A stretch of DNA of 64,000 nt from Dioscorea cayenensis subsp. rotundata. Taxonomy: Eukaryota; Streptophyta; Magnoliopsida; Dioscoreales; Dioscoreaceae. The DNA is taken from contig NC_052494.1 of assembly GCF_009730915.1 (NCBI RefSeq), positions 434,001-498,000 of the forward strand, read 5' to 3'. Below the pieces are notes generated by a model, which saw only the letters and a list, made by a program, of their open reading frames with translations, searched no databases and was not told the DNA's origin. A program made the translations under genes and the position numbers. This document shows, in pieces, positions 2,791 to 53,531 of the stretch. Every line of letters begins with the position of its first letter. The stretch's first letter is position 1.

Positions 2791-2946
2791 TATCATATAT
2801 TACCATAAAATTTAAAAAAAAAATCATATATTTTATTTATTTTTCTTTCTTTTCATCCCTATATTAAGACATGCACTCTTCTCTCATGTCCACCTTCATA
2901 CATTTCCTCACCATCTTCTCTTCAAAAAAACCATACCACCTTCAAA

Positions 2947-3612: not shown

Positions 3613-3930
3613 GCTTTTTCATGTTCAAATTATATTATATCCATGGAATGTGATTCCCTGTCATTAATGTTGTTTTCTTGTTCTTGTTCAACTAGCATTA
3701 TATATATATATAAAGCTGCTCCTCCCTTGTCATCTTGAAACTTTACTTTTTTTCTTTTTAAAGAATTTTTTTAAAAAAAAGAAAACTATGTCCTTATCCA
3801 AAAATTCTCAACAAACATTCAAAAATGAAGATCATAATCACAACCAAATCGTTATAAAATTATCCCTTCATACTTCCTATAAATATGTAAAACTCTAACC
3901 TTAATCTATAACCCTTAAGTAATTACCAAG
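3613..3930 (+). promoter_or_regulatory. short Dof-xylosidase spacer with TATA box at 3878-3885
   Basis: Only 318 bp separate the Dof stop codon from the xylosidase start codon on the same strand, so this holds the Dof 3' UTR and the xylosidase promoter. TATAAATA at 3878-3885 is about 50 bp upstream of the ATG and is the likely TATA box, which would give a very short 5' UTR. Confidence 0.55.
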
Positions 3931-10199: not shown

Positions 10200-10322
10200 A
10201 TGGCTTTGGGTTTAGTTGAGAAGACTGCTTACAAAGTTTTGCCTTCTGGTGAGCATACCATTGTGGTTGGAGATGGTCATTTAGCTGCTTCATTCCCTGT
10301 CACTGCTAATTTCAAGCATTAG
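10200..10322 (+). pseudogene. duplicated terminal fragment of the xylosidase gene
   Basis: The last 40 codons and stop of the xylosidase gene (from about 8020) are repeated here with only three substitutions seen by eye, and the similarity continues into the 3' flank to about 10560 (matching 8141-8400). An ATG created at the breakpoint gives a 40-codon open frame, but it has no catalytic part and no visible promoter. It is best read as a debris fragment of a recent segmental duplication that ends in repeat R and serpin 1. Confidence 0.85.
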
Positions 10323-10547
10323 ATGGACTTTATTGCAAATTTTATTTTTATTTTTATTTTTATTTTTTTGATCTAGTTCATTCAACGTGTTGTTGAATGC
10401 TCTATTTTATTTTATTTCAAACATTATTTTTCTATTGATTTGAAATATTATTTTTATGATATTGTTCTTTTTAGTTTATTTCATGCTTGTTTGAATATAT
10501 TTTTTTATTTACTTTAAGGAATAAAGATTGTTAATTAATTTATTTAA

Positions 10548-10812
10548 TTTATGAGGGTGTTTTTGCAATATTCTCTCGAATAAAACGAAAAAAAGTGAGG
10601 AATGAAGCAATTTTTTTTTAAAGTGGATTAAATTAACAATCAGTCCCTCGTAGAAGATTATCTCATATATTTCTCCACTGAAAGAGAATAACTGAATAAC
10701 AAGCATAGTAAAGGACTTGCATATAATTTATGAGGATTAAAAATGAATTATAAAATTGTTCAGGGACTAAAGTGGCTAACTAAAACCCCTTTTCCACCCT
10801 TTAAACCCTTCA
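10548..10812 (+). promoter_or_regulatory. repeat R copy forming the serpin 1 upstream region
   Basis: The fourth copy of repeat R ends about 45 bp before the serpin 1 start codon. Copies also lie before serpin 2 (about 15466-15672) and serpin 3 (19142-19215 plus 20196-20292). The proximal promoters of the three serpins are therefore one repeat family, shared with the xylosidase 3' flank. The promoter role is inferred from position. Confidence 0.6.
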
Positions 10813-10858: not shown

Positions 10859-12974
10859 ATGGACCTTCGAAAATCGATCGCGAAGCAGACCGGGTTCGCG
10901 CTCCGGCTGGCAAACCACGTTGGCACGGCCATCGCCGGGGGCTCCAACCTCGCCTTCTCGCCGCTCTCTCTCCATGTCGTCCTCGGCCTCATCGCCGCTG
11001 GATCAAATGGTCCTACTCGTGACCAGATCCTCTCGCTCGTCGGCTCGGCCAGCTCCGATGAACTCAGTTCCCTTGCGTCCCAGATCGTTTCCGTTGTTCT
11101 CTCCGATGCCTCGGCCAGTGGCGGTCCCCGGGTCGTCTTCTCCAACGGTGTCTGGGTCGATGGTTCGGTTTCTTTAAAGCCTTCTTTCAAACAGATCGTG
11201 TCTGGGACGTATAAGGCCGAGGCCAAGGCCGTTGATTTTCAGTCAAAGGTGAGAATTTTTCTATAAATTTTCGCCCTTTCCCCATTCTTTTAGTGTATTG
11301 ATACTAAAGATGTTTTTGCCTGAAGTTATTGTTGCATCCGTAGTTTGAACCTTTAATTGTATCAAATTTAGCATGTCTGTATCATATAATCCTTCTGTTA
11401 AATTGAACCTTGCCTTATTGTTGTTTTCATGGTATCATTGTAGTGATAGTCCATGCTGTCATATATATGCACTGTTCAGTGTTTTTGGTATAAAGACAAC
11501 CAAATCTATTGATTCATTAGAGTGTTTCAACTTTTACCTATCAATTACCATGAGCTTATACCATAACAATTTTCTTTGAACTGCTCTTTAGCTCAAGGAC
11601 TTCTATTGCTTGTTACATACTTTTATGGGTACTCCTGGACTGATGGCCAGATTTATTGGATAGATTTATTCAGTGAAAATGGTTTCTTCTGCGAGCTGAT
11701 AATTGTGGTACTTTCTTCTTGGTATATCATTTAGTGATAGATTGCTGGTGTGGTGTTGACACATATTTTTCCTTGTTTTCATCTGGAGTTTAGAGAAGAT
11801 ACAAACATATATTGAGAGATGTGGACCAAGAGGTGGGAACATCTGTTTCCTTGGGAAAAATATTCTCTAAGAACCAAAGTGGAAATCTTTGAAAATAATG
11901 TGCCTTTTATGCTTAGAAATGATGAAGGACTTCAGCACATAACATAGATTACATTGTATTTAGACTCAGAGTGTTGATAATTTTGAAAATTCCCTGCCTT
12001 TGCTGTTTTGCATGGTTGTGTATTGCAAGAAAATGTTACCAGGTATGTAAAAAAATAAATTAAAAAAAAGTGTTTGATTTGTGATCAGAACTATATAGTT
12101 TTATTTATTCTCAAGAGGGTTGCCTGTAGTTTGTTCATCTTTCAAAATATTTCTTGATGGTGATCTTTAAAATGAAGTTGGGTTCATATTGTTTCTGTAG
12201 GCTGATCAAGTTGCAAAAGAAGTTAACGCTTGGGTTGAGAATGTGACATCTGGACTCATCAAAGAGCTTCTTCCTTCTGGGTCTGTTGATCACAGTACAA
12301 GATTGGTCTTTGGAAATGCACTTTATTTTAAAGGGTTGTGGGATAAGAAATTTGATGCAACTGAAACCACCGACTCTGAATTCCATCTGCTTGATGGTAG
12401 CTCTGTACAAGTACCTTTTATGACCTCTGAAGATAAACAACTTCTCTCTGCCCACAATGGTTTTAAAGTCCTCGGGCTTCCTTACAAAAAAGGTGTTGAT
12501 GGGAGGCAATTTTCTATGTATTTATTTCTTCCTGATGCACAAGATGGTTTATGGAGTTTATTAGAGAAATTAAAAGATCTCGGGTCATTGGATCGTTATC
12601 TTCCAGCTCGAAAGGTTGCTGTAGGTGAATTTAAGATTCCAAAATTCAAGGTCTCCTTTGGATTTGAAGCATCTGAAGTTTTAAAAGCTTTGGGCCTGGA
12701 GTTGCTTTTCTCAGAAAACTGTGATCTGAGTGAGATGGTGGATTCACCCACTGGCCGAAAACTATATGTTTCATCAGTTTTCCACAAATCTTTTATTGAA
12801 GTGAATGAGGAAGGAACTGAGGCAGCTGCAGCATCGGCTGCTGTAGCTCTGAGGTATTTGTCCTTGCCTCTGCTGGATTTTGTAGCTGATCACCCCTTCA
12901 CGTTTTTAATAAGAGAAGACATGACAGGAGTTGTCATTTTCGTTGGGCATGTTATAAATCCTCAATTGGTCTGA
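10859..12974 (+). CDS. serpin 1 (plant serine protease inhibitor family)
   Basis: Two exons, 10859-11248 and 12201-12974, joined at a phase-0 GT-AG intron of 952 bp, give 387 residues, normal for a plant serpin. Serpins trap proteases by cleavage of an exposed reactive-centre loop followed by its insertion into a beta sheet. The [15 protein letters not shown] and C-terminal FVADHPF...FVGHVINP blocks are present. The hinge [10 protein letters not shown] begins at Glu333. Counting 17 residues from it puts P1 at Tyr349, with Arg348 next to it; the loop is two residues shorter than in copies 2 and 3, so P1 could be either residue. Most plant serpins of this class are thought to be intracellular and no signal peptide is seen. 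Exon 1 is GC-rich and exon 2 AT-rich. The reading frame is intact. Confidence 0.93.
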
Positions 12975-14600
12975 TAAATATATCCCATGAACAATTTTAC
13001 GACTGTGGAGCTATGTTTCTGGGGAATGTAGTAGTAATACTGTAAACATGTTTACGACTGCACCAGTGTGATGAGTAAATAAATGGTTGTTTGTATAAAT
13101 GGTTGGTTTGTCATAAGTGCATACCGTGACATGCTTTTTCTAACCCACTGTCAGGATTATCTCATCTTGATCACCTTCCAGAACAGTAAGAGAGACTTTA
13201 GAAGTGTCAATGTCGGCATTTTTCCTCGTCGGAATAAATGAAATCAAGTGTGAAAGCTGTCACGTCTCTGATGCAAGTTTCACTCATTCATGGTTGTCAA
13301 TCTCATTGCTTTCCTTCCAGTGTGAAGAACGAATGGTTGGTTTGCTGTAATTGTATTTCATGCTGTGCTTTTTCTAACCCATGGTAAGCAGGATTTTCTC
13401 ATCTTGGTTGCCTTCCAGCAGAGGGAGATGGCAGAAATAAAGATGACACATTTCTTCTTCAGAATTAATGAAATGAAGTGTGAAAGTCTGAAAGCTTGTT
13501 ATGTCTCTCATGTAAGTTTCACTTATACGTGGTTCTCAATGTCAATGCTTTTGCTGTTGAATTGCCATTCTTTTGTATTGTCTACCTTGATAAAACCTAT
13601 CATTTTCATTGCTTAGGGTCATCTTATATCTTGGTTTAAGGGACACCTTTTGTCATTAAATGGAGCCTGTTATTTAGTGAGAGGAATAAGACATTTAGTT
13701 CGGAAAAATATTTGACTTTTGTTTTTGCATATTGGGACCAGTAATTCTGAAAGGTTTTCAGCATCATTAATCATGCATGAAATTTGTCCATTGGTGTATA
13801 GTGACAAGTCCCAATAGTCTGAACACAATTTCCTGAATGATTTTATTTTTTTTACCTTTTTAGCAACTTCAATTGAATATATAGCAACTTTAAATATATT
13901 TACCTGAAGATTTTCAGTTTTGTCAATCACACTTGAAATTCGTTACAGTAAATTCGAAGACAAGCTTAATATGAAATAAAAAACTAGGGATAGTGTGAAG
14001 AATTTGTCAATTGACCAACAGTGACAGGTCCTAGCACATTGATCATGTCTTTGCAAGTCTGAGTAATGTGAATGCTTGAATTTCTTCTGCTCTTGAATAG
14101 GAAACACAATGTTTTAGCTTGTTATTGACTGAAATTCAATCTGTTTACTTGAAAGTTTCTAGTTTCATCAATCTCAAATTTTATTGCAGTAAAAATTTGA
14201 AGGGAGAAATTTATTTATTGATTAACAGTGGCAAGTCCTTGTATGTTGTGGGGATGCTTAATCTTTGTTCTTGAATATTAAATACTCTGTTTTAGCTTGT
14301 TAACAACTGTAACTCATTCTATTGACCTGAAGGCTTTCAGTTTTGTTAATTCACACTTCAAATTCATTGCAGTAAATCTAAATATGATTGCTGTATGTGG
14401 AATCAGAATTAGAGATATTGACAGTGATTTATTCAATTACCAACACTCTGAAGTATTAGCATATTGATTAGTGTCTTTGTGAGTATATGAATGCTTTACT
14501 TCTTCAGTTCTTGAAGATGGAACTCTGGGCAATTTGAGTTATTCTCTTATTAATCATATTTCAAATTTATTACATTAAACGGAAAGCAGTGCGCTCTTTG
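12975..14600. repeat. serpin 1 3' flank: two nested tandem-repeat blocks
   Basis: No gene is seen. Block one is an imperfect two-copy repeat of about 240 bp (13091-13332 and 13333-13560), each starting at TGGTTGGTTTG and carrying TTTTTCTAACCCA and ATGAAAT-AAGTGTGAAAG. Block two (about 13735-14600) is a degenerate repeat of about 200 bp in roughly four copies, each with AACAGTG-CAAGTCCT, TTTTAGCTTGTT and CAAATTCATTGCAGTAAA-like segments. Both recur after serpin 3 (31620-33300), and block two also after serpin 2. Confidence 0.65.
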
Positions 14601-15465
14601 CCATTCCTTAAAATAAGGATTATATATGTTCATTTATTAAAAAAACAAAAGGTTATTCAGATTCTAAAAACGGCAGCTAGAGACCATAAAAGGTCACTCA
14701 TGCTCATTTTGGAGTTTTTTTTTTTACTTGTCAATTTAGAAAATATATGAAATATGAAATATTATTTTTTAAAATTTAGGACTCGTTTGGTGGACATGAT
14801 AGGATATGAGAACTATGTTTATAAGCCATTAGATAGGATTTTGTTATTTATCTTACGTTTAAAGTGGACTAGATATGAATGATATATAAATAAACAACAT
14901 TATCTTTCATAATATAGTTATATATTTATTTTTAAAAAAAGACTTTTTTTTAAATCTTCAATGATTTACGTATCGTAGATTTAATATATTATATTATATT
15001 TTTAAAAAATAAATAACCTATAGATAATGTCCATAAATATATTGATTTCAATATCACATATTTCAAAAATTACAAATCATGGAAAGTAAAAGATCATAAG
15101 AAAAGAAAAGATACAATCAAACCCTAAATGACGGAGAAAAATCTAATTATAAGGTAAAAAAATAAATTTAATATTTTTTATCAAATCATGCCTGTTTTTA
15201 CCATTATTATTAATTATCATGTGGTCAGTAGGATAAAGATATAATGCCATGTTTATCATGTTTATTAAATGGCCTTTAATGTATTTCTATAATTTTTTAT
15301 AAATATATACAACTACACATTTTATTAAATTATATTTTAAATAAAGATAATTTTAGAAAGTATATAAACTTTAGATTTTTAATTAATTTAATTAATTTTT
15401 AAATTTATATGAATTTGTTAAAATGGATAAATAAAAAAGAAATAGTATTTTTTAATAATTTTTTT
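14601..15465. other. AT-rich spacer between serpins 1 and 2
   Basis: AT-rich DNA between the serpin 1 3' flank and the repeat R copy of serpin 2. A segment starting near 14780 (GGACTCGTTTGGTGGACATG) resembles the start of small plant transposons, but no matching end was found. No gene is seen. Confidence 0.6.
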
Positions 15466-15728
15466 CCAGCGAGAAAAACGTGAGGAATAAAATAAAGCAA
15501 ATTTCTTTTTAAAGCCGAGTAAATTAACCATCAGCCCCTCTTGGAAGATTTCATCTGATGTTCTTCCACTGAAAGAGGACGAATCTGTAAAACAAACATA
15601 ATAAAGGGCTTGCATGTAATTTAAAAGTATTAAAAATAAATAACTAAAAACTCTTTTATTTTTCCTTAAACCCATAACTTCGATCAAACTCCCCAAAAAA
15701 AACCACAACCGAATCGAAAACCCTAACA

Positions 15729-17772
15729 ATGTTCCTTCGAAAATCGATCGCGAAGCAGACGGGGTTCGCGCTCCGGCTGGCAAACCACGTTGGTGCGGCC
15801 GCGGCCATCGACGGGCGGAACCTCGTCTTCTCGCCGCTCTCTCTCCACTCCATGCTCAGCCTCATTGCCGCTGGCTCGAAGGGTCCTACCCGTGACGAGA
15901 TCCTCCCGGTCCTCGGCTCTGCGAACCTCGGTGAACTCAGCTCCCTCGCGTCCCGGATCGTTTCCGTTGTTCTCTCCGACGCCTCGGCCAGTGGCGGGCC
16001 CCGGATCGTCTTCTCCAATGGTGTCTGGGTCGATCGTTCGGTTTCTTTGAAGCCTTCTTTCAAACAGATCGCGTCTGAGACGTATAAGGCCGAGGCCAAG
16101 ACCGTCGATTTTCAATCAAATGTGAGAATTTAATTTTTCGATCTTTCTTCATTCGTTAGTATTGTGATACCAAAGATGGTGGTTCTTTTTTTTTTATTTT
16201 TTATTTTTATTTTAAATTAAGTTGTTGTTGTATCTAGAGTTTGAACTTTTAATTTTAGCAATTTCAGCATGTTATACCCTAATATTCCTTGTCATAATGA
16301 AGTTGTTGTTGTATCTAGAGTTTGAACTTTTAATTCTAGCAATGTCAGCATATTATACCCTAATTTTCCTAGTCATAATGAAGTTGTTGTATCTAGAGTT
16401 TGAACCTTTAATTCTAGCAATTTCAGCATGGTATACCCTACTTTTCCTAGTCATAATGAAGTTGTTGTTGTATCTAGAGTTTGAACTTTTAACTCTAGCA
16501 ATTTCAGCATGTTATACCCTAATTTTCCTAGTCATGGATCTGGACATGTTGTGAGGACCTATCATTAATGTGTGAATTTAGCTAGGCAGCCCATTGAAAT
16601 TCTTGAATTTGAATTTGAGTTATATGAGTGATGGAAGATATTCTGAAAGAACCAAAGTGGAAATCTTTGAAAATAATGTGCTTTTTGTGCTTAGAAATGA
16701 TTAAGTGTTTCAGCGCATAACATATTAACATCTATTACATTATATTGTATATTCGGAATGTTGATGATTGTGAAAATTTCCTGCTTTTGCTGTTTTACTT
16801 GGTTGTGCATTTCAAGAAAATGATACCTGGCATGTGAAAAAGTAAAAAAAGAAAAGAAAAGAAGTTTTGCTTGTGATCAGAAATATTTAGTTCTATTTAT
16901 TCCCAAGAGGGTTGCCTGTAGTTTGTTAATCTTCCTAAATGTTTCTTGATAGTGGTCTTTAAAATGAAGTTGGGTTCATATTGTTTCTCTAGGCTGATCA
17001 AGTTGCAAAAGAAGTTAACGCTTGGGTTGAGAATTTGACATCTGGACTCATCAAAGGCCTTCTTCCTTCTGGGTCTGTTGATCACGAGACAAGATTGGTC
17101 TTTGGCAATGCCCTTTATTTTAAAGGGTTGTGGGATAAGAAATTTGATGCAACGGGAACCACCAACTCTGAATTCCATCTGCTCGATGGTAGTTCTGTAC
17201 AGGTACCTTTTATGACCTCTGAAGATAAACAACTTCTCTCTGCCCATGATGGTTTTAAAGTCCTCGGGCTTCCTTACAAAAAAGGTGTTGATGGGAGGCA
17301 ATTTTCTATGTATTTATTTCTTCCTGATGCACAAGATGGTTTATGGAGTTTATTAGAGAAATTAAAAGATCTCGGGTCATTGGATCGTTATCTTCCAGCT
17401 CGAAAGGTTGCTGTAGGTGAATTTAAGATTCCAAAATTCAAGGTCTCCTTTGGATTTGAAGCATCTGAAGTTTTAAAAGCTTTGGGCCTGGAGTTGCTTT
17501 TCTCAGAAAACTGTGATCTGTCTGAGATGGTGGACTCACCCACTGGCCAAAATCTATATGTTCCATCAGTTATCCACAAATCCTTTATTGAAGTAAATGA
17601 GGAAGGAACTGAAGCAGCTGCTGCATCTGTTGTTGTAGTGTTAGGGTCAGCGCGCGTGTATCAACCTCCGCTGGATTTCGTTGCTGATCACTCCTTCCTG
17701 TTTTTAATCAGAGAAGACAGGACAGGAGTTATCCTGTTCGTTGGGCATGTTATAAATCCTCTGTTGGTTTGA
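15729..17772 (+). CDS. serpin 2 (plant serine protease inhibitor family)
   Basis: Two exons, 15729-16121 and 16993-17772, with a phase-0 intron of 871 bp, give 390 residues. The body is nearly identical to serpins 1 and 3, and exon 2 is close to identical to serpin 1 exon 2 up to the loop. The hinge [10 protein letters not shown] is intact, but the following loop [15 protein letters not shown] is unlike both other copies. By length P1 is Ser350 with Ala at P1', and an Arg follows two residues later. The conserved Pro after VADH is Ser here (VADHSF), a change at an otherwise invariant site in these copies. The intron contains a four-copy minisatellite. The upstream region is a copy of repeat R. 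The frame is fully open. The target protease is unknown. Confidence 0.93.
16218..16535 (+). repeat. 80-bp minisatellite, four copies, in the serpin 2 intron
   Basis: Four head-to-tail units of about 77-82 bp start at 16218, 16300, 16381 and 16458, each with GTTGTATCTAGAGTTTGAAC, TCTAGCAATTTCAGCAT and ATACCCTAATTTTCCTAGTC-like segments. A single diverged monomer lies at the matching place in the serpin 1 intron (about 11320-11395). The open frame across the array is a by-product of the repeat. Confidence 0.85.
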
Positions 17773-19140
17773 TAAATGTCTCCGGTAAACAATTTAGGTA
17801 TTACCTTTTTAGCATTTTTAATTGAATATATTTACCTGAAGATTTTCAGCTTTGTCAATCATGCTTGAAATTCGTTGCAGTAAATCTGAAGGCAAGCTTT
17901 ATATGAAATCAAAAATAGAGATAGTGAGATAATTTAGTAATTGACCAATAGTGACAGGTCCTATCACATTGATTATGTCTGCGCAAGTCTGAGTAATCAG
18001 AAATGTGAATGTTTGGACATCTTATGCTCTTGAATAGGAAACACAATGTTTTAGCTTATTATTGACTGCAATTCACTCTGTTACTTGAAGGTTTTAGTTT
18101 CATCATTCTTCAAATTCATTGCATGAAAAATTCAGAGGGAGAAATTTATCCATTGATTAACAGTGACAAGTCCTTGTTTATTGTGGGGGATGCTTAACCT
18201 TTGTTCTTGAATATCAGATACTCAGCTTGTTAGCAACTGTAACTCATTTTATTGACCTGAAGGCTTTCAGTTTTGTTATTCATTCATTGCAGTAAATCTA
18301 AATATGATTGCTGTATGTGGAATCAGAGATAGAGATATACACACAGATTTATTCAATTAGTGACACTGTTAAGTCCTAGCATATTGATTAAGTGTTTTTC
18401 TTCTTCAGTTCTTGAGTATTGAACTCTCGGCAATTTGAGTTTTTTTTCTTTATTAATCACACTTCAAATGTATTACATCAAATGCAAAGCAGAGCATTCT
18501 TGGCCATTTGAGTATTCTGATTGCTTAACCTTCATAGTCATGAATATCAAACAGTGTTTTTAGCTTGTTTGCAGCTGTAATTCAATCCTATTTACCTTAA
18601 GTTCTTCAGTTTTCATGATGTATTTTATTTTATTTTATTTATTTAAAATATTATTTTTATGATATTATTCTTTTTGGAGCTCATTTCATGTTTGTTTGAA
18701 TGGTGTTTTTATTTTATTTTGAGGAATAAGGATTTAGTAGTCAAGGTGTACACACATGGGTAATGAAAACCGCACAAATTAAATTTCACACACAATGGGA
18801 TTAGGACCATTTTGCCAAAAGCTTTTCATAATTAAAATTATTTTCTCTGGTTTTTTTACTTGTCTATTTTATCTAAATCGTACGAATTAAAAAAATTAGT
18901 TAAAATTTGTTGTAATCTAAAATTTATAAAAATTATATTAATGTTTCAGATTACTTTTATTTTAAATATGTTTTAAGAAGTAGAAAAAAATTGGCAAAAA
19001 AATCATTAAATATTTTATAAATTTTTTAAATGGACAAGTAAAAATTACCAAAGAAAACCTTTAAAATGTGACAAGTAAAAAAAAAAAAAATCCTGAAATA
19101 GTTTTTTTTTAATTCAATGATGGATGTTTTTTAGATTGAA
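17773..19140. repeat. serpin 2 3' flank, partly deleted, plus a xylosidase-3'-flank remnant
   Basis: The degenerate 200-bp repeat block found after serpin 1 recurs from about 17815 to 18600, but the two-copy 240-bp block is missing, so the stop codon is followed almost at once by block two. 18612-18735 matches the xylosidase 3' flank (8252-8370 and 10404-10530), for example ATATTATTTTTATGATATT and CATTTCATG-TTGTTTGAAT. 18740-19140 is AT-rich spacer. No gene is seen. Confidence 0.6.
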
Positions 19141-19141
19141 A

Positions 19142-20292
19142 AAAAAAAGAGAGGAAATAAAGCAAATTTCTTTTTAAAGTGGATTAAATTAACCATCATC
19201 CCTTTTTAGATTTTATAGGATCTATAACATCTATTGTAAGATCGGATCATAAAATAATAAGATTTTATTAACTACTAAAAATTGATATTAATATATACAA
19301 AAGTATTTATGAACTAATTAATATTATTTACTAATATAACAATTTCAAGATTATGATTGCATTAAGTGAGAAGAAGATCGAGATAAGATAAGATGTGAGA
19401 TGATATCGTGAGTCTTGATCCATGGTGAGAAATTGAGAAAGATCAGATAAAATGAGAAAGATTAGATAAAAATTAAGATTAGATAAAAATATAAAAATAT
19501 AAAATCTTCCCTTCATATGATTTTGATGATCATAACTATCCAAATGCCTCAAATTAATATATTTTATTTAATAAAGCTATATATATATTTTTTAAAAAAT
19601 AGTTATTTTAATAGTTTTAAAAATAGGTCAAATTGATCTGATTTTACAGATTTTACCCGGTTAACACCCTGATTTTAGTTATTTGTGATTTTTATATAAT
19701 TTTAGATGATTTTATGTTTTAAAATCATAGAATCATACGATTTTATGGTTAAAATCGTTGAATTGTTAACACGCCTGATTTTTAGTTATTTTATACAATT
19801 TTACCTTATTTTATTTTATAATTTAAAATCATAAAATCGGATAATTTTTATAGTTAAAATCGTTGAATAATTATCACGCCTGATTTTAGTTATTTACTAT
19901 TTTAGTTATTTATTATTTTTATACAATTTTATCTTATTTTATTTTATAATTTAAAATCATAAAATCGGATAATTTTTATAGTTAAAATCGTTGAATAATT
20001 ATCACGCCTGATTTTAGTTATTTACTATTTTAGTTATTTATTATTTTTACACAATTTTATCTTATTTTATTTTATAATTTAAACTCATAAAATCGGATAA
20101 TTTTTATAGTTAAAATTATTGAATAATTATCATGCCTGATTTTTACAATTTTATCTGATTTTATTTTATGATTAAAATCAAGATTTTAACAACTTTGCCA
20201 ATCTGTAAAAGTAAAACAGATAAAGGACTTGCATGTAATTTACTACTATAAAAAATGAATAACTAAAAACTCTTTTATTTTTTTCTTAAACC
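19142..20292. repeat. repeat R of serpin 3, split by an insertion with a 128-bp tandem repeat
   Basis: The R repeat is recognisable at 19142-19215 and 20196-20292. Compared with serpin 2, about 980 bp have been inserted between them. The inserted part includes 19748-20193, about 3.5 copies of a 106-128 bp unit: AAATCGTTGAATAATTATCA, then GCCTGATTTTAGTTATTTA, then a stretch ending CATAAAATCGGATAATTTTT. The two middle copies (19854-19981 and 19982-20109) are almost identical. No open frame or clear terminal repeat was found. Confidence 0.65.
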
Positions 20293-20368
20293 CTTAACTT
20301 CGATCAAACCCCCCAAAAAAATCACAATCGAATCGAAAACCCTAATAATCTTCTTTCGAGAATCATTC

Positions 20369-23300
20369 ATGATCGCGAACCAGACTAGGTTTGCGCTCCG
20401 GCTGGCAAACCACGTTGGCGCGGCAGCGGCCTTCGACGGGAGGAACCTCGTCTTCTCGCCGCTCTCTCTCCACGTCATGCTCAGCCTCATTGTCGCTGGA
20501 TTGAAGGGTCCTACTTGTGACCAGATTCTCCCGGTCCTCGGCTCGGCGAGCCACGGTGAACTTAGCTCCCTCGCGTCCCAGATCGTTTCCGTTGTTCTCT
20601 CCGACGCCTCGGCCAGTGGCGGTCCCCGGATCGTCTTCTCCAATGGTGTCTGGGTCGATCGTTCGGTTTCTTTGAAGCCTTCTTTCAAACAGATCGCGTC
20701 TGAGACGTATAAGGCCGAGGTCAAGTCCGTCGATTTTCAATCAAATGTGAGATAAATTTTCGCTCTTTCCTCATTCGTTAGTATTGTGATAGCAAAGATG
20801 GTGGTTCTTTTTTTATAAATAAAATGAAGTTGTTGTTGTATCTAGAGTTTGAAGTTTAAATTCTAGCAATTTCAGCATGTTATACCCTAATTTTCCTAGT
20901 CATAATGAAGTTGTTGTTGTATCTAGGGTTTGAACTTTTAATTCTAGCAATTTCAACATGTTATACCCTAATTTTCCTAGTCATAATGAGGTTGTTGTTG
21001 TTGTATCTAGAGTTTGAACTTTTAATTCTAGCAATTTCAGCATTTTATACCCTAATTTTTGTTAAACAAAGTGAACATGCTTGTGAATATCCTCCCTGAA
21101 GACTCGTTCTACTGTCATGTTCTTTCAGTTAACAAGTTAGTGGCTAAAATTAAGGATATGTAAAACCTCCATGAAGAGTTCTCACTTGTAACCGTCAATA
21201 TTAGACTTATATAAAGAACTATAGGACTGTATGGCTGAATGTGTGGAAAACATTAATTTTTTCATGGTATCAAGAGCCTTTATCTCTTAATTCTTCATCA
21301 TGGCATCCTCCACGAACACAGTAGTTTCCGCATCCACACAAAATTCCACTGTTGGCCTTCTTCCAACACCATCTTTTAGTCATGCCATCAGTGTTAAGTT
21401 AAACCGAGAGAATTATCTTATGTGGAAGGCACAGATGATGCCTTATCTCAAAGGGCAATCCCTACTTCAGTTTGTTGATGGTTCATATCCGTGTCCAAAG
21501 GATACCATTATTTCCTTGAGTGAAGAAGGGGCATCACAAGAGCCTAATCCAGAGTATCATGCATGGTGCCAGCGTGATCAACAGGTGCTGAGTGCCATTC
21601 TATCCTCTCTGTCTGAAGAAAATCTGGCACATGTACTTTTTCTTTCGACTTCAGCCGAAGTATGGAACGCATTGGACAAGATGTTTTCTTCAAGATCAAG
21701 AGCAAGAATCATGCAGATTCGTCTCAAACTAACTAATCTGCAGAAGAAGGAAACAACAGCGTCTGATTATTTTCGCCGGGTCAAGAATCTGGTGGACACT
21801 CTCTCAGCTATCAGACAACCTCTCCAGGATGAAGAGGTAATTTCATATATGTTGGCAGGTCTAGGATCTGAATTTGATCCTCTGGTTACTTCGATCTCTA
21901 CCAGAAGTGAGCCAATTACTTTAAATGACCTGTATGCTCATCTGCTAAGCTTTGAAATGAGACTTGAGCATCATAGCTCAGTTCTTCAGATGAATTCCTC
22001 TGCAAATATTGTCTCTAGAAATCAAGGTGGAAATTCAAGAGGGAGAGGCCGTGGTAGAGGTGGCAGAGGACCACCTCAAAGTGGCAACAACAATTTCTAC
22101 AACTCCTCTAGCAACCGTGGAGGAAGAGGCAATTATCAAGGGTCAAGACCCAAATGCCAAGTTTTTGGCAAAGATGGACACTCAGCTCTCAAGTTATCAT
22201 CGTTTTGACCATTCTTATCAAGATGAGGACACAAATTTTGCTGGTGTAGCTACTACAACATCATACCAAGTTGATCCAAACTGGTACATGGACTCAGGAG
22301 CAACAGATCATATCACAAGTGATCTTGATCGACTCACAATCAAGGACAAATATGGAGGAGGAGACCAGGTTCAAGTCGGCAATGGTTTAGGTTTGCATAT
22401 TTCTCATGTTGGTCATTCTAGTATTCACACTCCTAAAACTACTCTTTTGTTAAACAATGTGCTTCATGTTCCTAAGATTTCCAAACATCTTGTGTCTATC
22501 CATAAATTTACTAAAGATAACAATGTTTTCTTGGAACTTCACCCTTACCATTTTGTTGTGAAGGAACAAGCAACGAGGAGAAAACTTTATCAAGGCAAAT
22601 GTGAAATGTGAAGGAGGGTTGTATCCACTCAAGTTTAGTTACAATGCCCAAAAGACTGCCTTCTTAGGAAATAGAAACTCTCAAGATCTTTGTTAATGCA
22701 TGCTTCAGTTACTGTAAGACTTTAGCTTTACCAATAAGTCAATGTTCTTCCTTGTTTCCAGTTGTTTTCTGTTCAGTTTTTTTGAGAGTTGTGTAGTGGC
22801 TTGTTTTGTGGCTGGTTTTTAGGATATAGTTGTGTCAAATCATGTCCATGTATTTCTTTCTATCAGTCAGTGGTTTTTGTTGTATTTAAGCTGAAGTTAG
22901 ATTAATGAATTACCATCTTTTCCCAGCAAACTATCCTTGTTCTGTTTTTCTCCTTTAATCCTCCAAGTCTTAAGCTCAAACTTCCAACAAATTGGTACCA
23001 GAGCTGTCTTCTTGAGGGACCTGTGAGTAAGAGAAACCCATCTAAACACCTTTCTTTTTCCATGGATTCTGAAACACCCTTCTCATCATTGGCACCACCT
23101 GTCTTTAATGGTGAAAATTACCATGTTTGGGCTGCTAGAATGGAAGCTTATTTGGAAGCAAATGATCTCTGGGAAGCTGTTGAGGAGGAGTATGATGTTC
23201 CTGAATTGCCAGCAAACCCAACACTGGCACAGATCAAGAATCATAAGGAGAAGAAGGCAAGGAAGTCGAAGGCTAGAGCTATACTGTTTTCTGCTGTGTC

Positions 23301-26300
23301 ACCAGAAATCTTTGTCAGGATCATGACCAAGAAATCTGCATTCAAAGTCTGGAATTTCCTCAAAAGTGAATATGAAGGAGATGAAAGAATCAAAGGGATG
23401 CAAGTTCTCAATCTGATCAGGGAATTTGAATTGGTGAAGATGAAGGATTCAGAGACTATCAAAGAGTATTCCAACAGATTACTCAGCATTGCCAACAAAG
23501 TAAGATTACTTGGCACTGAATTTCGATTCTAGATTGGTTCGGGAAGGTTCTTGTAACTATTCCCCGAAAGATTTGAAGCCACAATCTCCTCTTTAGAGAA
23601 TACTAAAGACTTGTCGAAAGTCGATCGGCAGAGTTGTTGATTGCCTTTACGTGCGCAGGAATATAGAAGACTCATGAGGAATGAAGGATCAATAGAAGGG
23701 GCATTACTGCAGAAGAGTCCAATCAAGCCAAGTTGGAAAAGGAAAGAAGATCCGAAAAGCAAGAAAGAATGTGCAAGTTCGATTCTCCAAACACTAATGG
23801 AGAATCAGAATATGATTTTCCTCCTTGTAGGCATTGTGGAAAGAAGGGTCATGCACCCTTCGAGATCTCGGAGAAGGCCGACGCGTGCAAAGTGTGAAAA
23901 AAATGTCAAAAGATGGGGCACCACCGTAAGATTTGTAAGAGCAATATGCAGCAGAGAAATGTGACTCAAGTCAACCTTCAACAGAGAAATGTGGCTCAAG
24001 TTGCGGATCGGGAAGAGGAAGAGCAACTTTTTTGTGGCAACTTGTTTTTGCAAACAAATAGTTCTAATGAAAGTGGGAAATGGCTTGTGGATAGTGGTCG
24101 CACTCAACCACATGACCTTTGATAGAGATCTCTTCAGGAGTTTGGACACATCATATATCTCCAAGGTGAAAAATTGGCAATGGAGAGTACCTTCTCGTCA
24201 AAGGAAAAAGGAATTGTGGCGAGTTGAGAGTTTCTTAGGTACAAAATTAATCAAAGATGTGTTATTTGTACCTGATATCAATCAGAATTTACTGAGTGTT
24301 GGTCAACTACTTGAAAGAGGTTTCAAAGTGATCTTTGAGGGCAAGCAGTGCTTAATCAAAGATTCAGATGGTAACGATGTATTCAAAGTAAATATGAAAG
24401 GGAAGAGCTTTGAGTTAGATCCTTTGGAGGAGGAGCAAGCAGCATTTTTTACAAAAAAGATGCAGGCTGAAATCTGGCACAAACGGCTTGGCCATTTCCA
24501 TCATGTTGCAGTGCTGAATATGCAAAAGAAGAAATTGGTTCAAGGGCTACCTCACTTAGAAGCTGAGTTACCAGACTGCAAGGCTTGTCAGTTTGGGAAG
24601 CAAGCAAGACTTCCTTTCAAGCAAGCAACCTGGAGAGCTACTGAAAGGTTGAGATTAATCCACACAGACTTGGCTGGACCTCACAGAACTCCTTCACTCA
24701 ATGGGAGTAAGTATTATATAGTCTTCATTGACGACTATACTCGAATGTGTTGGATTTATTTTTCTCGGGGTTCAAATCGAGTTGCCGGTGTATTCGGAGG
24801 TTCAGCAGTGGATAGAAACTCAAAGTGGATGCAAAAATTCGGGCCTTAAGGTCGGGATAATGGCAAGGAGTACAACTCGATAAGTTCAACTGCTTTTTGT
24901 GAGAAAAGCGGGAATTGAACATCAATTCACAGCTCCATATACTCCTCAACAAAATGGAGTTAGTGAGAGAAAGAATCGAACAATTATGGAGATGGCCGAT
25001 GCATGCTTCAGTGAGAAAGACTTGCCAAAGGAATATTGAGGTGAGGTCTGCAAACATCTGCTTTTTGCTCAATAGGCTACCAACCAAGGCAGTGGAAGAA
25101 AAGACACCCTTTGAGGCTTGGTATGGTTACAAACCTTCTTTAAAAAACCTCAAAGTATTTGGGTGTTTGTGTTTTGCTTATGTGCCACAGATTAAGAGAG
25201 ATAAGCTTGATAAGAAGGCGGAAGCTGCAATCTTTGTGGGATATAGCACAGTCACTAAGGCTTACAAAATTTTCCAGCCTCATACTAGGAAAATTCTGAT
25301 AAGTAGAGATGTGCATTTCATGGAGAATGACAAATGGAATTGGGCAAAAGCAGAACCAACTACATCTCCTCAGTTGAACGAAGAAGAGTTGGTGGATGAT
25401 GAACCTGTAAGAGGCACAAGATTGCTCTCTGACATTTATCAGAGTTGCAATGTTGCAATCCTTGAACCTGCAGATTTATGGGAAGCTAAAAAGGATCCAA
25501 AATGGAGAGCTGCAATGAAGGAGGAGCTTACCATGATTGAAAGAAATCGAGACACGGAAGCTTGTGAAGAGGCCAAAGGAAAAGAAAAAGTAATAGGAAT
25601 GAAGTGGGTGTTCGTAACTAAAACCGAATGCGGATGGCTCCATTAACAAGCACAAAGCAAGGCTTGTTGTCAAAGGGTATGCTCGGATCTTTGGTGTCGA
25701 TTTTTGATACATTTGCTCCCGTAGCTAGATTGGATACCATAAGATTGCTACTTGCTATCTACGCACAAAAGGGTGGAAAGTGTACCAACTAGATGTCAAA
25801 TCTGCATTTTGAATGGTATTCTCGGGGAGGAGATTTATGTCGAGCGACTGAAGGATTTGTTGTTAAAGGGCATGAAAATGAAGTCTATTTACTCAAGAAG
25901 GCCTTATATGGCTGAAGCAAGCTCCAAGGGCCCCAGTGCAGACAAAAATTGATGAGCATTTGATGGAGTTGGGTTTCAAAAAGTCTAAGTGAAACAACTC
26001 TTTATATCAAAGGTGATGAAATTAATTTTGTTGTGATATCTCTATATGTTGATGATCTCGCGATTACGAGGAAGCAATGTTGAGCTTGTTGAGGAATTTA
26101 AAACGGATGTGCAAAGTTCCTTTGAGATGACAAATTTGGGTGAAATGACTTATTTCCTTGGATTGGAGATCAAGCAAAAAAAGAATGAGATCTTCATATG
26201 TCAAAAGAAGTACGCATGAAAGGAGATCTTAAAGAAGTTCGGAATGGAGGAATGCAAGAGCATGGCTACTCCTATGTGTCGGAAGGAAAAAGTCGAGCAA

Positions 26301-29300
26301 GCTTGATGAAAAGTGAAAAGAATTGATGCGAGTCCTCTACAAAAAGCTTGGTTGGTTGTCTCATGTACTTGCGAGCAACTAGGCCCGGATATTTTTGCAT
26401 CTCTGTAAGTCTATTGTCTAGATTTACAAATTGTGCAACCGAAAACGCATCTTAGAGTCGCAAAAAGGATCATGAGATATGTTAAGGGAACACTAAATTT
26501 TTGGCATAAAGTATAATGCAAGCCCGGAGTGTTATTTGCATGGGTATTCGATCGGTGATTGAGCTGGATCTGCGATGATATGAAGAGCACTTGATTACTT
26601 GTTTTAATCTTGGATCGGTGTGTTTTTCTCGGTGTTGTAAAAAGCAAGAAATAGTTGCACAATCCAGCAGAGTTGAGTTTATTGCAGCTACATAAATGCG
26701 CAAATCAAGCTTTATGGCTAAGGAAAGTCGTGATTGATCTGAATTTGAAGCAAGAAGGATGCATCGAGGTGTTTGTGGACAATCGGGGCTGCAATTTCTA
26801 TCTCCAACAATCCCTGCTTTTTCATGGGAAAAACCAAGCATTTTAACATCAAGATGTTCTTTTCTTAGAGAAGTGCAAAAAGAAGGGTCTGCATTAGTCT
26901 AAAGTATTGCGAGCGATCTTCGCTAGCGATTTGTTCACCAAACCTCTACCAAGAAGCAAGTTTGAGTTCTTAAGGGATAAGCTTGGCATTTGCAGCAACT
27001 AAAGCAAGGAGGAGTGTTAATGTATGCTTCAGTTACTGTAAGACTTTAGCTTTACCAATAAGTCAATGTTCTTCCTTGTTTCCAGCTTGTTTTTCTGCTC
27101 AGCTTTTTGAGAGTTGTGTAGTGGCTTGTTTTTGTGGCTGGTTTTTTAGGATATAGTTGTGTCAAATCATGTCCATGTATTTCTTTTCTATCAGTCAGTG
27201 GTTTTTGTTGTATTTAAGCTGAAGTTAGATTAATGAATTACCATCTTTTCCCAGCAAACTATCCTTGTTCTGTTTTTCTCCTTTAATCCTCCAAGTCTTA
27301 AGCTCAAACTTCCAACAATCTTTGGCACCAAAGACTTGGTCATCCCTCAAAATCAGTTGTTCAGCTTGTTCTTCAGCAAAACAATCTTCCTTTTCTTAAG
27401 AATGATGATGAAAATGTTTGTAATGCTTGTCAATTAGCTAAAAGTCATCAACCTCCCTACTCCAAGTCTACACATGTTTCTGAAATTCCTCTCCAACTCA
27501 TCTTTTCAGATGTTTGGGGACCAGCTTTTCAATCCTCTAGTGTTTCAAAGTACTATGTAAGCTTCATTGATGATTATAGCAAATTCACCTGGATCTATCT
27601 CTTAAACAACAAATCTGATGTTTAAACCACATTTTTTCAATTCAAAAATCATGTTGAAAGACTTCTAGGCAAGGAAATTAAAAGTGTTCAAATTGACTGG
27701 GTGGGGGAGGGGGGGCCAATATCAGAAACTTCATAAGTTCTTTAATCAAATTGGCATTCAACATAAAATCTCTTGTCCTCACACACATCCACAAAATGGT
27801 TCAGCGGAAAGAAAACATAGACACATTGTAGAAGTTGGATTAGCACTTTTAGCTCAAGCTTCTCTACCAATTAAATTCTGGGGTGAAGCCTTCCTGACAT
27901 CTTGCTATCTTATAAATAGAATACCCAGTCGTGTGATCAATAACAAAACTCCTCTAGAACAACTGCTTAGTAAGAAACCTAATTACTCTCTACTTAAAGT
28001 TTTTGGTTGTGCTTGTTGGCCAAATCTGAGACCCTACAATGCCCACAAACTTTCATTTAGATCAAAACAATGTGTCTTTATTGGTTACAGTTCTCATCAT
28101 AAAGGATACAAATGCCTTCACATTGAAAGTGGTAGAGTTTATATTTCCAGAGATGTAATTTTTGATGAAAATGTGTTTCCCTTCACTTCAAAACAACCCA
28201 CTACTAAACAACAATCTGATTCCTCAACTCTTTTACCCTCTTTTATTAATACTAGCACTATTTCAGAAACTCAACTGCACCCAAACACTGTTCCTTATAA
28301 TCTCTCTAACTCATCTATTAGCAGTGACCAACTAGAGAATTATGAACAAAACCTTGTCCAGTCTGACTTTTCTCCTGCAGATACTTTAGAATTTTCAACT
28401 CCTGGTATATAGCTTCTGAGACAGATTTGGAGCAACAAACAAAATTTCAAACTGAACAAGCACCAAGACACTTAATGAAAACCAGACTAAAAGATAACAT
28501 TAGAAAACCCAAGATTTTCAGTGATGGCACTGTTTATTCCAGGCACGCACTCATGGCATCTTCTGAACCTTCCACTCATACTAAAGCTCTTCAAGTACCT
28601 TGCTGGAGACAAGCCATGGACATTGAGTTTGAAGCTCTTACACAGAATCAAACATGGGATCTGGTTCCCCAGAAGAAGGGTCTTAATCTTATTGATTGCG
28701 AGATGGATTTTTCAAACTCAAAAAAAGAGCGTGATGGTTCTATTGATAGATATAAAAGCTAGATTAGTGGCAAAAGGGTTCAAACAAAGGCATGGAGTGG
28801 ATTATGATGACACATTTAGTCCTGTTGTCAAGTTTTCAACAGCCGGACTAATTCTGTCTCTAGCGATGATCAAGGAACCCGGATAATGAAAATGCATTGA
28901 TATCCAAAAATGCCTTTTTACATGGGTTTCTGGAAGAAGAAGTATATATGAGGTAGCCTCCAGGGTTTGAAAGTAAAACACAGCCTCATCATGTGTGTAA
29001 ACTGAAGAAAGCTCTCTACGGACTCAAACAAGCACCCAGAGCTTGGTTTTCACGGTTGAGGACTAAACTGCAAGAATTAGGCTTCGCTCCCTCAAAAACA
29101 GACACTTCTCTCTTCATATACAATTAGAATGAAATCATTGTGTATATACTGGTGTATGTAGATGACATCATTATAGTCAGCTCATCAGATGATATGATCA
29201 AAACCTTGATTGACAAGTTAAAATTATCATTTCTTGTCAACGATCTTGGTGAACTAAGCTATTTTCTGGGCATCAGTGTCAACAAAACACAAAGGGGAAT

Positions 29301-31535
29301 AGTTTTAAATCAAAGAAAATATATTTCTGAACTACTTCATAAGGCACATATGTCTAATTGCAAGCCCTGTCTTACACCCATGTCGGTTTCTGAGAAGATA
29401 TCTAGAACCACTGGTACTCCTTTACCAGATGCAGAGATTACTAAAGTGCTGAAGCATTGTTGGTGCCCTTCGATTATCAACCTTAACTAGAACCCAGACA
29501 TCTCTTTTTTCGTGAACAAAAGTATGTCGAGTACATGCACACGTCCTACGAGAGACTCACTCGGTGTGCGATAAAAAGGATTTTTAAGATATTTTGCATA
29601 CACTCTCAACTATGGGATAGCAATCAACAAATCTTCCTCAACTTTGATCAGTGCTTTTACTAATTCTGATTGGGCCGGATGTGCAGATGACAGAAGATCT
29701 ACAGGAGGCTATGCAGTTTTCTTCGGAGAAAATCTTGTATCTTGGAGCTCTAAGAAACAACCCTCACTGATATCAGGTCAAGCACTGAAGCTGAATACAA
29801 GGCTCTGGCAAATGCAGCTGCTGAAATAATCTTGTTCCAGTCATTGTTAAAGGAATTGAATATATTTCAGTCAAGATCCCCTGTCCTTTGGTGTGATAAT
29901 ATTGGAGCAACATATCTTTCTGCCAAACCCGTTTTTCATGCCAGAACAAAACACATTGAAGTAGATTTTCATTTTGTAAGAGAAAGAGTTGCTCGAAAAC
30001 TTCTGGATGTTCGATTCATATCCTCTCAAGATCAACTGGCAGACATTCTGACCAAGCCTCTTTCAGTCCAAGTTTTTCATTCACTTTGCAACAATCTCAA
30101 TCTGGTATCTACACCATTGAGATTGAAGGGGACTGTTAAACAAAGTGAACATGCTTGTGAATATCCTCCCTGAAGACTCGTTCTACTGTCATGGTCTTTC
30201 AGTTAACAAGTTAGTGGCTAAAATTAAGGATATGTAAAACCTCCATGAAGAGTTCTCACTTGTAACCGTCAATATTAGACTTATATAAAGAACTATAGGC
30301 CTATATGGCTGAATGTGTGGAAAACATTAATTTTTTCAATTTTCCTAGTCATAATGAAGTTGTTGTTGTATCTAGAGTTTGAAGTTTAAATTCTAGCAAT
30401 TTCAGCATTTTATACCCTAATTTTCCTAGTCATGGATCTGGACATGTTGTGAGGAACTATGATTAATGTGTGAATTTAGCTAGGCAGCCAATTGAAATTC
30501 TTGAATTTGAGTTATATGAGTGATATAAGATATTCTCTAAGAACCAAAGTGGAAATCTTTGAAAATAATGTGCTTTTTGTGCTTAGAAATGATTAAGGGT
30601 TTCAGCGCATAACATTTATTACATTATATTGTATACTCAGAATGTTGATGATTGTGAAAATTTCCTGTGTTTGCTGTTTTACATGGCTGTTAATCTTCCA
30701 AAATGTTTCTTGATAGTGGTCTTAAAATGAAGTTGGGTTCATATTGTTTCTGTAGGCTGATCAAGTTGCAAAAGAAGTTAACTCTTGGGTTAAGAATTTG
30801 ACATCTGGACTCATCAAAGAGCTTCTTCCTTCTGGGTCTGTTGATCACAATACAAGATTGATCTTTGGCAATGCACTTTATTTTAAAGGGTTGTGGGATA
30901 AGAAATTTGATGCAACTGAAACCACCGACTCTGAATTCCATCTGCTCGATGGTAGCTCTGTACAAGTACCTTTTATGACCTCTGAAGGTAAACAACTTCT
31001 CTCCGCCCACGTTGGTTTTAAAGTCCTCGGGCTTCCTTACAAAGAAGGTGTTGATGGGAGGCAATTTTCTATGTATTTATTTCTTCCTGATGCACAAGAT
31101 GGTTTATGGAGTTTATTAGAGAAATTAAAAGATCTTGGGTCATTGGATCATTATCTTCCAGCTCGAAAGGTTGCTGTAGGTGATTTTAAGATTCCAAGGT
31201 TCAAGGTCTCATTTGGATTTGAAGCATCCAAAGTTTTAAAAGCTTTGGGCCTGGAGTTGCTTTTCTCAAAAAACTGTGATCTGTCTGAGATGGTGGACTC
31301 ACCCACTGGCCAAAATCTATATGTTCCATCAGTTATCCACAAATCCTTTATTGAAGTAAATGAGGAAGGAACTGAAGCTGCTGCTGCAACTGCTTTAATG
31401 TGTGGGTCATCATCGCCCATGTATCTGCGTCCGCTGGATTTTGTTGCTGATCATCCCTTCCTATTTTTAATCAGAGAAGACATGACAGGAGTTGTCCTGT
31501 TCGTTGGGCATGTTATAAATCCTCTATTGGTTTGA
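20369..31535 (+). CDS. serpin 3, with a 10-kb intron holding nested retrotransposons
   Basis: Two exons, 20369-20746 and 30756-31535, flank an intron of 10,009 bp (20747-30755) with standard GT and AG ends, giving 385 residues. Both exons are open and all serpin blocks are present. At the position of the start codon used by copies 1 and 2 this copy has ATC. A 6-bp insertion seven codons downstream creates the in-frame ATG at 20369, so the protein would lack about six N-terminal residues. The loop after EEGTEAAAA is [15 protein letters not shown], with Ser345 at P1 by length. Expression depends on splicing across two LTR elements and on an interrupted promoter repeat. It may be functional or a recent pseudogene; the intact exons favour recent or continuing function. 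Confidence 0.82.
20824..21059 (+). repeat. 80-bp minisatellite in the serpin 3 intron (insertion target)
   Basis: About three units of the serpin 2 minisatellite precede the outer retrotransposon, and the array continues after it at 30339-30440. The element inserted inside one unit at ATTTT (21055-21059), which is repeated at 30339-30343 as the target-site duplication. Confidence 0.85.
21060..21264 (+). repeat. 5' LTR of outer element
   Basis: 205 bp, begins TGTTAAACAAAGTG and ends TTTTTTCA. It is the same length as the 3' LTR, with three mismatches seen by eye. Confidence 0.95.
21265..21277 (+). other. primer-binding site of outer element
   Basis: TGGTATCAAGAGC immediately follows the 5' LTR. 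It matches the plant Copia initiator-methionine tRNA site apart from one extra base. Confidence 0.75.
21300..22208 (+). pseudogene. outer Copia gag (capsid/nucleocapsid), frameshifted
   Basis: A 302-residue open frame from the first ATG after the primer-binding site. It holds a UBN2/retrotransposon gag-type capsid region ([13 protein letters not shown] near the start, [18 protein letters not shown] in the middle) and an Arg/Gly-rich nucleocapsid tail. The single zinc knuckle is damaged: its second Cys is replaced by Phe, and a small deletion near 22190 shifts the frame before the last Cys, so gag ends early instead of continuing into pol. Confidence 0.88.
22190..22611 (+). pseudogene. outer Copia protease segment
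   Basis: After the frameshift the reading continues in the next frame with the retropepsin active-site motif D-S-G-A (in [12 protein letters not shown], about 22280-22318). The frame stops at 22609-22611. About 80 bp later the inner element interrupts the pre-integrase region. Confidence 0.85.
22691..22989 (+). repeat. 5' LTR of inner element
   Basis: 299 bp; differs from the 3' LTR by about three substitutions and six single-base indels, mostly in T runs. Confidence 0.93.
23062..23532 (+). pseudogene. inner Copia gag, truncated by a stop
   Basis: The ATG at 23062 opens a gag of the UBN2 type with [39 protein letters not shown] and [17 protein letters not shown] segments, and stops at 23532. 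Gag-like sequence continues in other frames to about 23945, where two CCHC zinc-knuckle remnants (CRHCGKKGH and [12 protein letters not shown]) can be seen. Confidence 0.85.
23946..26997 (+). pseudogene. inner Copia pol, multiply frameshifted
   Basis: A degraded protease region (LVDSG near 24085) is followed by the integrase HHCC domain ([11 protein letters not shown] to CKACQFGKQ, about 24470-24600), the integrase core (IHTDLAGP and FIDDYTRM, to about 25340), reverse transcriptase with YVDD at 26044-26055, and RNase H (to about 26860). Frames change many times and stops are frequent, so no full polyprotein can be made from this copy. Confidence 0.85.
27015..27317 (+). repeat. 3' LTR of inner element
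   Basis: 303 bp, preceded by a purine-rich tract (27001-27014) and followed by the ATCTT target duplication and the resumed outer pol sequence. Confidence 0.93.
27323..28412 (+). pseudogene. outer Copia integrase, resumed after the inner element
   Basis: The first part (27323-27625) carries the end of the pre-integrase zinc domain (VCNACQLAK) and the core motifs FSDVWGPA and [13 protein letters not shown], and ends at a stop near 27622. After a G-rich damaged stretch (27695-27716) the core continues in an open frame to 28412, with [17 protein letters not shown] and the FGCACWP and [11 protein letters not shown] segments. Confidence 0.88.
28427..30133 (+). pseudogene. outer Copia reverse transcriptase and RNase H, frameshifted
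   Basis: Reverse transcriptase runs over several frames (about 28515-29470), including [20 protein letters not shown] and the catalytic YVDD at 29155-29166. RNase H follows (29644-30130) with [16 protein letters not shown] and [10 protein letters not shown]. The internal stops and frame changes rule out a full product. A purine-rich tract ends at 30133. Confidence 0.88.
30134..30338 (+). repeat. 3' LTR of outer element
   Basis: 205 bp, followed by the ATTTT target duplication and the continuation of the serpin 3 intron minisatellite. Confidence 0.95.
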
Positions 31536-35861: not shown

Positions 35862-35946
<85 letters not shown>

Positions 35947-38256: not shown

Positions 38257-38496
38257 ATGAAGATGACGACGAAGAAGCACAAAGAACGCAGCAATGGACA
38301 ACTTCTTCGCCGGCGAGATCGCGACGGAGCTCGTCAAGGAGCTCATCAAGGTCATCCGGCATGCTTATCTCTGCCGTCCCTCTGCCGAGCAGCTCAAGCG
38401 CTCCGTCGATGCCCTCCTTCCCATCGTCAACGAGATACGATACTCCGGCGTGGAGCTCCCCCAAGCACGCCAGAACCAGCTTTCAGACCTCGCTGA
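38257..38496 (+). other. possible upstream ORF overlapping the NLR start codon
   Basis: An ATG 37 bp before the NLR start opens a 79-codon frame in a different phase that overlaps the NLR coding start and ends at 38496. If the mRNA begins upstream of 38257, ribosomes starting here would miss the NLR ATG, which could lower its translation. There is no evidence that the peptide itself has a function. Confidence 0.3.
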
Positions 38497-53364: not shown

Positions 53365-53531
53365 CAAAAAGCACATGTGGCACGAGGCACACGTTGAAAT
53401 CCACCTTATCTTAATCCAACGGTCACGATCAACTAGACCCGTTAACCCGAAACCCGCAACGGGTCGTCTATAAAGAGGTCTCCATTGTATCCAAACCCGA
53501 AACCCGAATCCGAGAAGAGAGCGCGGTGGAG

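Follow-up and report, generated by a model that had tools for sequence, protein, structure and literature searches.

Three tandem plant serpin genes with strongly diverged reactive-centre loops and a second exon probably homogenised by gene conversion

Three tandem two-exon serpin genes (S1, S2 and S3), all on the plus strand, lie within the 64-kb window, i.e. the whole stretch of 64,000 nucleotides that was analysed, and combine an identical hinge with reactive-centre loops that differ far more than the remainder of the second exon. Exon 2 was probably homogenised by gene conversion, with the detected runs of identity ending before the loop. A reasonably probable explanation, of a kind known from animal serpins, is that conversion keeps the protein bodies alike and that the loops diverge through selection and indels.

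The gene models were rebuilt by splicing at a common GTGAGA donor and TAG acceptor, resulting in three open reading frames with no internal stop and with GT..AG introns located between codons. S1 (10859-11248 + 12201-12974, + strand) encodes 387 aa, S2 (15729-16121 + 16993-17772, + strand) 390 aa and S3 (20369-20746 + 30756-31535, + strand) 385 aa. Exon 1 of S1 (10859..11248) is an open frame followed by a GT donor at 11249, with a Pfam Serpin match at E 6.9e-18, and its exon 2 (12201..12974) is preceded by an AG acceptor and matches at E 5.4e-73; exon 1 (15729..16121) and exon 2 (16993..17772) of S2 and exon 2 of S3 (30756..31535) are each supported by the splicing model and by Pfam, and exon 1 of S3 (20369..20746) opens at a replacement start codon at 20369. 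Pfam Serpin (PF00079) was matched by six of six exons at 65-250 bits, relative to a curated cut-off of 27 (E 6.9e-18 to 4.6e-74), and with exon 2 of S3 as the sole query the nearest solved structure was AtSerpin1 (Arabidopsis Serpin-ZX, 3le2; E 2.2e-89). A tblastn search of the window with the three proteins revealed no further serpin copies, the only matches besides the six exons having E > 2.

The surroundings of the array were annotated with Pfam. The region is flanked by a Dof zinc-finger frame (2809-3609) and a DEK C-terminal domain frame (53415-53897), and near the array are frames with RPW8, NB-ARC and LRR domains at 38267-41992, which together resemble one RPW8-type resistance gene. 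A GH3-type gene has Pfam support at 6207-7043 and 7514-8137, with a start near 3919 judged by eye, and its 3' end (8020-8419) is repeated at 84% identity directly upstream of S1 (10202-10584). Two near-identical simple-sequence repeats of ~80 bp, at 567-645 and 35864-35943, also match their own reverse complement. Minisatellite units of ~81 bp occur in the introns of S2 (16215-16535) and S3 (20823-21059), and the S1 intron had no match in the self-comparison.

The third copy is altered at its start and in its intron. At 20348-20350, S3 has ATC where S1 and S2 use ATG, and six extra nucleotides nearby provide the new in-frame ATG, of poor context by eye, with the loss of five residues near the N-terminus that in S1 and S2 lie upstream of the Pfam-matched part (from residue 9). 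The 10.0-kb S3 intron (20747-30755) carries a 9.28-kb retroelement insertion, a copia-type LTR element (21060..30338, + strand) with 205-bp LTRs that differ at 3 positions, a 5-bp target duplication (ATTTT) and a copia-type gag at 21300-22205 (Pfam). Nested within it is a second LTR element (22691..27318, + strand), putatively also copia-type, with LTRs of ~300 bp that are 97% identical and a retroviral polymerase SH3-like domain at 24915-25643 (Pfam). The divergence between the outer LTRs places the insertion long after the split of S2 and S3, so the open exons of S3 are no proof of its continued expression.

In inhibitory serpins, the hinge has a run of small residues before P8, and the corresponding motif, EEGTEAAAA, is common to S1, S2, S3 and AtSerpin1. 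The initial annotation, made from the DNA alone, had described this hinge as identical in the three copies, the following 13-15 residues as almost completely different and LDFVADH as returning after them, and the translated gene models confirm each of these points. From P8 to the residue before LDFVADH, the variable loop comprises 13 residues in S1 (12834..12872) and 15 each in S2 (17626..17670) and S3 (31389..31433), all on the plus strand. P1 was placed by counting 17 residues from the conserved Glu; the same count has been applied to rice serpins in sections of PMC3534287, in which P17 Glu is a hinge position and LR serpins are defined by Leu-Arg-small residue at P2-P1'. By this count P1 is Tyr in S1, with Arg beside it, and Ser in both S2 and S3, exactly as had been proposed from loop length, and the P2-P1' residues are RYL (S1), GSA (S2) and SSS (S3) versus LRG in AtSerpin1, in agreement with the earlier view that no copy keeps the LR-GLL-like loop usual in plant serpins. 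The further proposal that copy 1 retains an LR is correct insofar as Leu-Arg is present in S1, but the 17-residue count places it at P3-P2, so S1 is not an LR serpin in this register; in a 16-residue register P1 would be Arg, giving LR-Tyr, again without a small P1'. None of the three proteins has Leu-Arg-small at P2-P1' under the 17-residue count. A small P1 is common among plant serpins: in rice, 4 of the 11 putatively inhibitory members have one, and in Arabidopsis 4 of 8, according to the same sections of PMC3534287.

Divergence was counted along the aligned duplicated segment, with the retroelement left out and with only those columns that were ungapped in all three copies, i.e. 468 columns of the 602-nt 5' intron, 234 of the 350-nt 3' intron, 221 of a 259-nt upstream segment, 704 of the 1140-nt last segment of the 3' flank and 24 of the preceding 506-nt segment. 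For S1-S2, S1-S3 and S2-S3 respectively, differences amounted to 22.6, 37.1 and 26.2% in the upstream segment, 13.1, 13.8 and 6.9% in exon 1, 47.0, 47.6 and 6.0% in the 5' intron, where S1 is probably not alignable, and 14.5, 12.4 and 6.0% in the 3' intron. Within exon 2, they were 5.2, 3.9 and 5.9% at S1 12201-12507, 1.9, 5.3 and 3.4% at S1 12508-12770, 10.0, 11.7 and 1.7% over the 60 nt of pre-hinge and hinge, 43.6, 56.4 and 51.3% in the loop and 12.7, 9.8 and 6.9% in the tail. Downstream of the gene, values of 25.0, 20.8 and 12.5% were obtained for the 506-nt segment with its 24 columns, and 13.9, 16.9 and 15.1% for the last flank segment (13481-14620).

Over its first 570 nt, exon 2 has 21, 26 and 27 differences and is closer than the 3' flank, with 98, 119 and 106 differences in 704 columns, in all three pairs (one-sided p <= 5e-10 each), a contrast that carries the caveat of weaker constraint on the flank than on coding DNA. 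Coding constraint adds to the likeness of exon 2, yet synonymous divergence there is low too, with a dS before the hinge of 0.08 in each pair versus 0.12-0.23 in exon 1. In S1-S2 (p = 7e-8) and S1-S3 (p = 4e-7), this 570-nt part of exon 2 also shows less divergence than exon 1, with no significant excess of exon 1 over the exon-2 body in S2-S3 (p = 0.097), and the exon-2 contrast hence derives from the pairs with S1 and from the flank. The near-identical body reported initially is thus a property of exon 2 and not of exon 1, in which S1 differs from S2 and S3 at 13-14% of nucleotides. The accompanying description of the genes as very recent tandem copies is not supported as it stands, as the 3' flanks differ by 14-17% and gene conversion better explains the likeness of exon 2; judged by its flanks, the array is moderately old. 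The introns of S2 and S3 are also closer (42 differences in 702 columns) than their 3' flank (106 in 704; p = 1.6e-8), as if a larger part of that pair had been converted.

Polymorphic sites show a mosaic of patterns along the genes. In exon 1, the 3' intron and the pre-hinge, the prevailing pattern is agreement of S2 with S3 (37 of 64, 23 of 37 and 6 of 7 polymorphic columns, respectively), and within exon 2 this pattern yields to mixed patterns and then to 11 consecutive sites at which S1 agrees with S2. These sites (S1 12457-12714) fall within a 272-nt run of S1-S2 identity at S1 12457..12728, equal to S2 17249-17520 (+ strand; codon-alignment columns 649-920, converted by hand), which ends ~80 nt before the hinge. 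In permutation tests conducted without the 5' intron and the loop, none of 5000 within-gene permutations reached such agreement and 5 of 5000 did so when the 3' flank was included, and the run is likely a gene-conversion tract between S1 and S2. A 109-nt run of S2-S3 identity at S2 17507..17615, equal to S3 31270-31378 (+ strand; codon-alignment columns 907-1015, converted by hand), enters the hinge codons and ends 10 nt before the loop; its 10 agreeing sites were matched by 448 of 5000 within-gene permutations and by 149 of 5000 with the flank, and the run is weak when taken alone.

Loop dN/dS was estimated by the Nei-Gojobori method on a MAFFT residue alignment and, to be aware of indels, on codon alignments that minimise nucleotide differences. 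The initial annotation had named a loop dN/dS near or below 1 as evidence against its reading, and in the residue alignment the values for S1-S2 (0.24) and S1-S3 (0.97) are of this kind and the value for S2-S3 (1.73) is not; outside the loop dN/dS was 0.34-0.51 by exon. Loop dS was 1.84, 1.07 and 0.49 for S1-S2, S1-S3 and S2-S3, far above body dS, and in S2-S3 it is high mostly because indels misplace codons in the residue alignment. In the indel-aware alignment, the S2 and S3 loops are separated by two opposite one-codon indels, which leave them equal in length, with nonsynonymous differences at 11 of 30.5 sites and a synonymous difference at 1 of 11.5 (pN and pS of 0.36 and 0.09). These replacements exceed the rates at synonymous sites of the body (p = 0.0004), in the intron (p = 2.8e-6) and in the 3' flank (p = 0.005; all one-sided), and nonsynonymous versus synonymous change within the loop alone was not significant (p = 0.13). 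In S1-S2, pN and pS are 0.41 each, and both replacements (p = 0.0008) and synonymous sites (p = 0.019) are above the 3' flank rate, the synonymous excess not being predicted by selection on the protein alone. S1-S3 carries little weight because its alignment is unstable, the number of gap codons varying from 2 to 8 with the gap cost; its replacements are above the 3' flank at p = 0.009 or 6e-6, depending on the same choice. With indels taken into account, a clear nonsynonymous excess over synonymous change was accordingly seen in one of the three pairs only, S2-S3.

Compared with the body, the loop has more nonsynonymous change in all three pairs by two-sided Fisher tests (p = 7e-8 for S2-S3, 3e-7 for S1-S2 and 5e-5 or 4e-4 for S1-S3, by gap cost), and the amino-acid excess in the loop was found over the neutral yardstick as well as over the body. 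The serpin pattern of loop diversification, which had been recognised from the sequence, is thereby upheld. The suggestion that it reflects selection for different target proteases fares less uniformly, being favoured by the excess of S2-S3 replacements over flank and synonymous body sites, but not by the equality of pN and pS in S1-S2 or by the non-significant contrast within the S2-S3 loop. There appears to be fair evidence for positive selection on the loop, most of it from the single pair S2-S3, with all tests limited by the use of three sequences and by a loop of 13-15 codons whose alignment affects the result. Whole-gene dN/dS was rejected as a test, as conversion and indels make its result misleading, and a frameshift origin of the loops was considered by inspecting the loop DNA by eye, with whole-codon indels being sufficient for S2-S3.

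Other histories could potentially leave a diverged loop on a homogenised exon. The loops may be old cassettes that short ectopic conversion events copied in from other, more strongly diverged serpins outside the array, in which case synonymous and nonsynonymous loop sites should both exceed the flank, as in S1-S2, and the conversion tract supported within the array lends this idea some substance. Against it, the loops of S2 and S3 can be aligned from end to end with only two single-codon indels and one synonymous change per 11.5 sites, and so look descended from one loop altered in place, and the 64-kb window contains no other serpin copy from which a cassette could have come; import is considered unlikely. 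Nor does it seem probable that the loop merely escaped conversion, with its indels and mismatches halting tracts as a heterology barrier and preserving old divergence without target selection. The runs found do end before or at the loop, the loop does differ in length among copies and the array does look older by its 3' flank than by exon 2, but preserved neutral divergence would equal that of the flank, and loop replacements are above it in both S2-S3 and S1-S2.

Relaxed constraint would account for the loops in another way, with S2 and S3 now inhibiting nothing and their loops drifting. S3, having lost its original ATG, having an intron interrupted by the 9.28-kb insertion and having a replacement start of poor context (by eye and by a rule of thumb), is compatible with such decay. 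The three open frames, the identical hinge and the constraint outside the loop are not, and drift would not raise S2-S3 loop replacements above the intron and flank rates, making decay very improbable.

Under the favoured explanation of homogenised bodies and selected loops, each serpin would offer its loop as bait, and a protease cutting at P1 would be trapped as the Ala-rich hinge inserts itself into the body, a mode of action expected from the intact hinge and the family match. Gene conversion would have made the copies alike over the initial 570 nt of exon 2, as the mosaic site patterns support, and the loop, lying outside the detected tracts, would have changed by amino-acid replacement and whole-codon indels under selection for different targets, which is partly shown for S2 and S3 and presumed for S1. 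That these are working inhibitors is supported by the hinge together with the family match and the constraint on the body, with trapping, targets and expression being predictions. S1, with Arg-Tyr at P2-P1, may meet trypsin-like or chymotrypsin-like proteases, and S2 and S3, with Ser at P1, would be expected to meet proteases that accept a small P1. A more tentative and rather doubtful extension is that the array functions as a loop-diversifying device in a plant, in which conversion would keep the trapping machinery of exon 2 alike, tracts crossing the loop would be prevented or eliminated, and codon indels of opposite sign would shift residues through the P1 register at constant loop length, with new target specificities arising as a result. 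More generally, dN/dS estimates for such loops break down when the model ignores indels and conversion, and the likeness of exon 2 can yield false ages.

Among characterised plant serpins, AtSerpin1 and the Serpin-ZX LR serpins (3le2; part of PMC3534287) belong to the same family, with a 10-residue hinge common to S1 and S2 (S3 has T at P8) and, in AtSerpin1, DFVADH after the loop as in all three copies. Relative to AtSerpin1, the loops of the array are shorter by three residues (S1) or one (S2 and S3), have RYL, GSA or SSS in place of LRG and are carried by three tandem copies. In Brachypodium and barley, sections of PMC7692276 report expansion by tandem duplication, involving 19 of 27 Brachypodium and 9 of 25 barley genes, with whole-gene Ka/Ks mostly < 1. 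Close relatives among the wheat serpins can differ in the loop (excerpts of PMC6686943), and a physically close wheat pair with 80% protein identity has identical loops, its own nearest relatives having different ones, which is the reverse of the present array; the wheat paper makes no mention of hypervariability. A search of the open-licence literature for plant serpins together with gene conversion, in those words only, found no paper, and in the same collection the Brachypodium and barley study was the one paper to mention serpins along with Arabidopsis, the reactive center, positive selection and tandem genes.

Loop hypervariability after duplication is already established in animal serpins, for which its combination with gene conversion is also described, and was reportedly reported there by Hill and Hastie in 1987 and by Ohta in 1994. 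In the rodent SERPINA1/SERPINA3 tandem arrays (woodrats; portions of PMC12646145), the loop is enriched for positively selected sites and the copies have differing inhibition profiles in direct tests, although these are animal arrays of more copies, and the likeness implies no shared origin. Human SERPINB3 and SERPINB4 (portions of PMC4136820) are young duplicates, 92% identical, with selected loop sites and different protease classes as targets; they are two genes in great apes, the differences listed are replacements, and the paper does not mention gene conversion. At its scissile bond SERPINB3 carries Ser-Ser, a feature that S3 would share, and it targets cysteine proteases (PMC4136820, same portions), a parallel that may serve as a lead to the target of S3 and no further. 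Ohta explains the hypervariable reactive centres of inhibitors by conversion followed by selection, naming protease inhibitors generally and an insect serpin, with no plant array in the passages concerned, and notes that in antibody variable regions synonymous changes are raised as well under conversion, which fits the S1-S2 loop (passages of PMC3966226). A plant array with a converted body beside a diverged loop would allow endogenous and attacker proteases to be compared, in plants, as the driver of the diversification seen in animal serpins.
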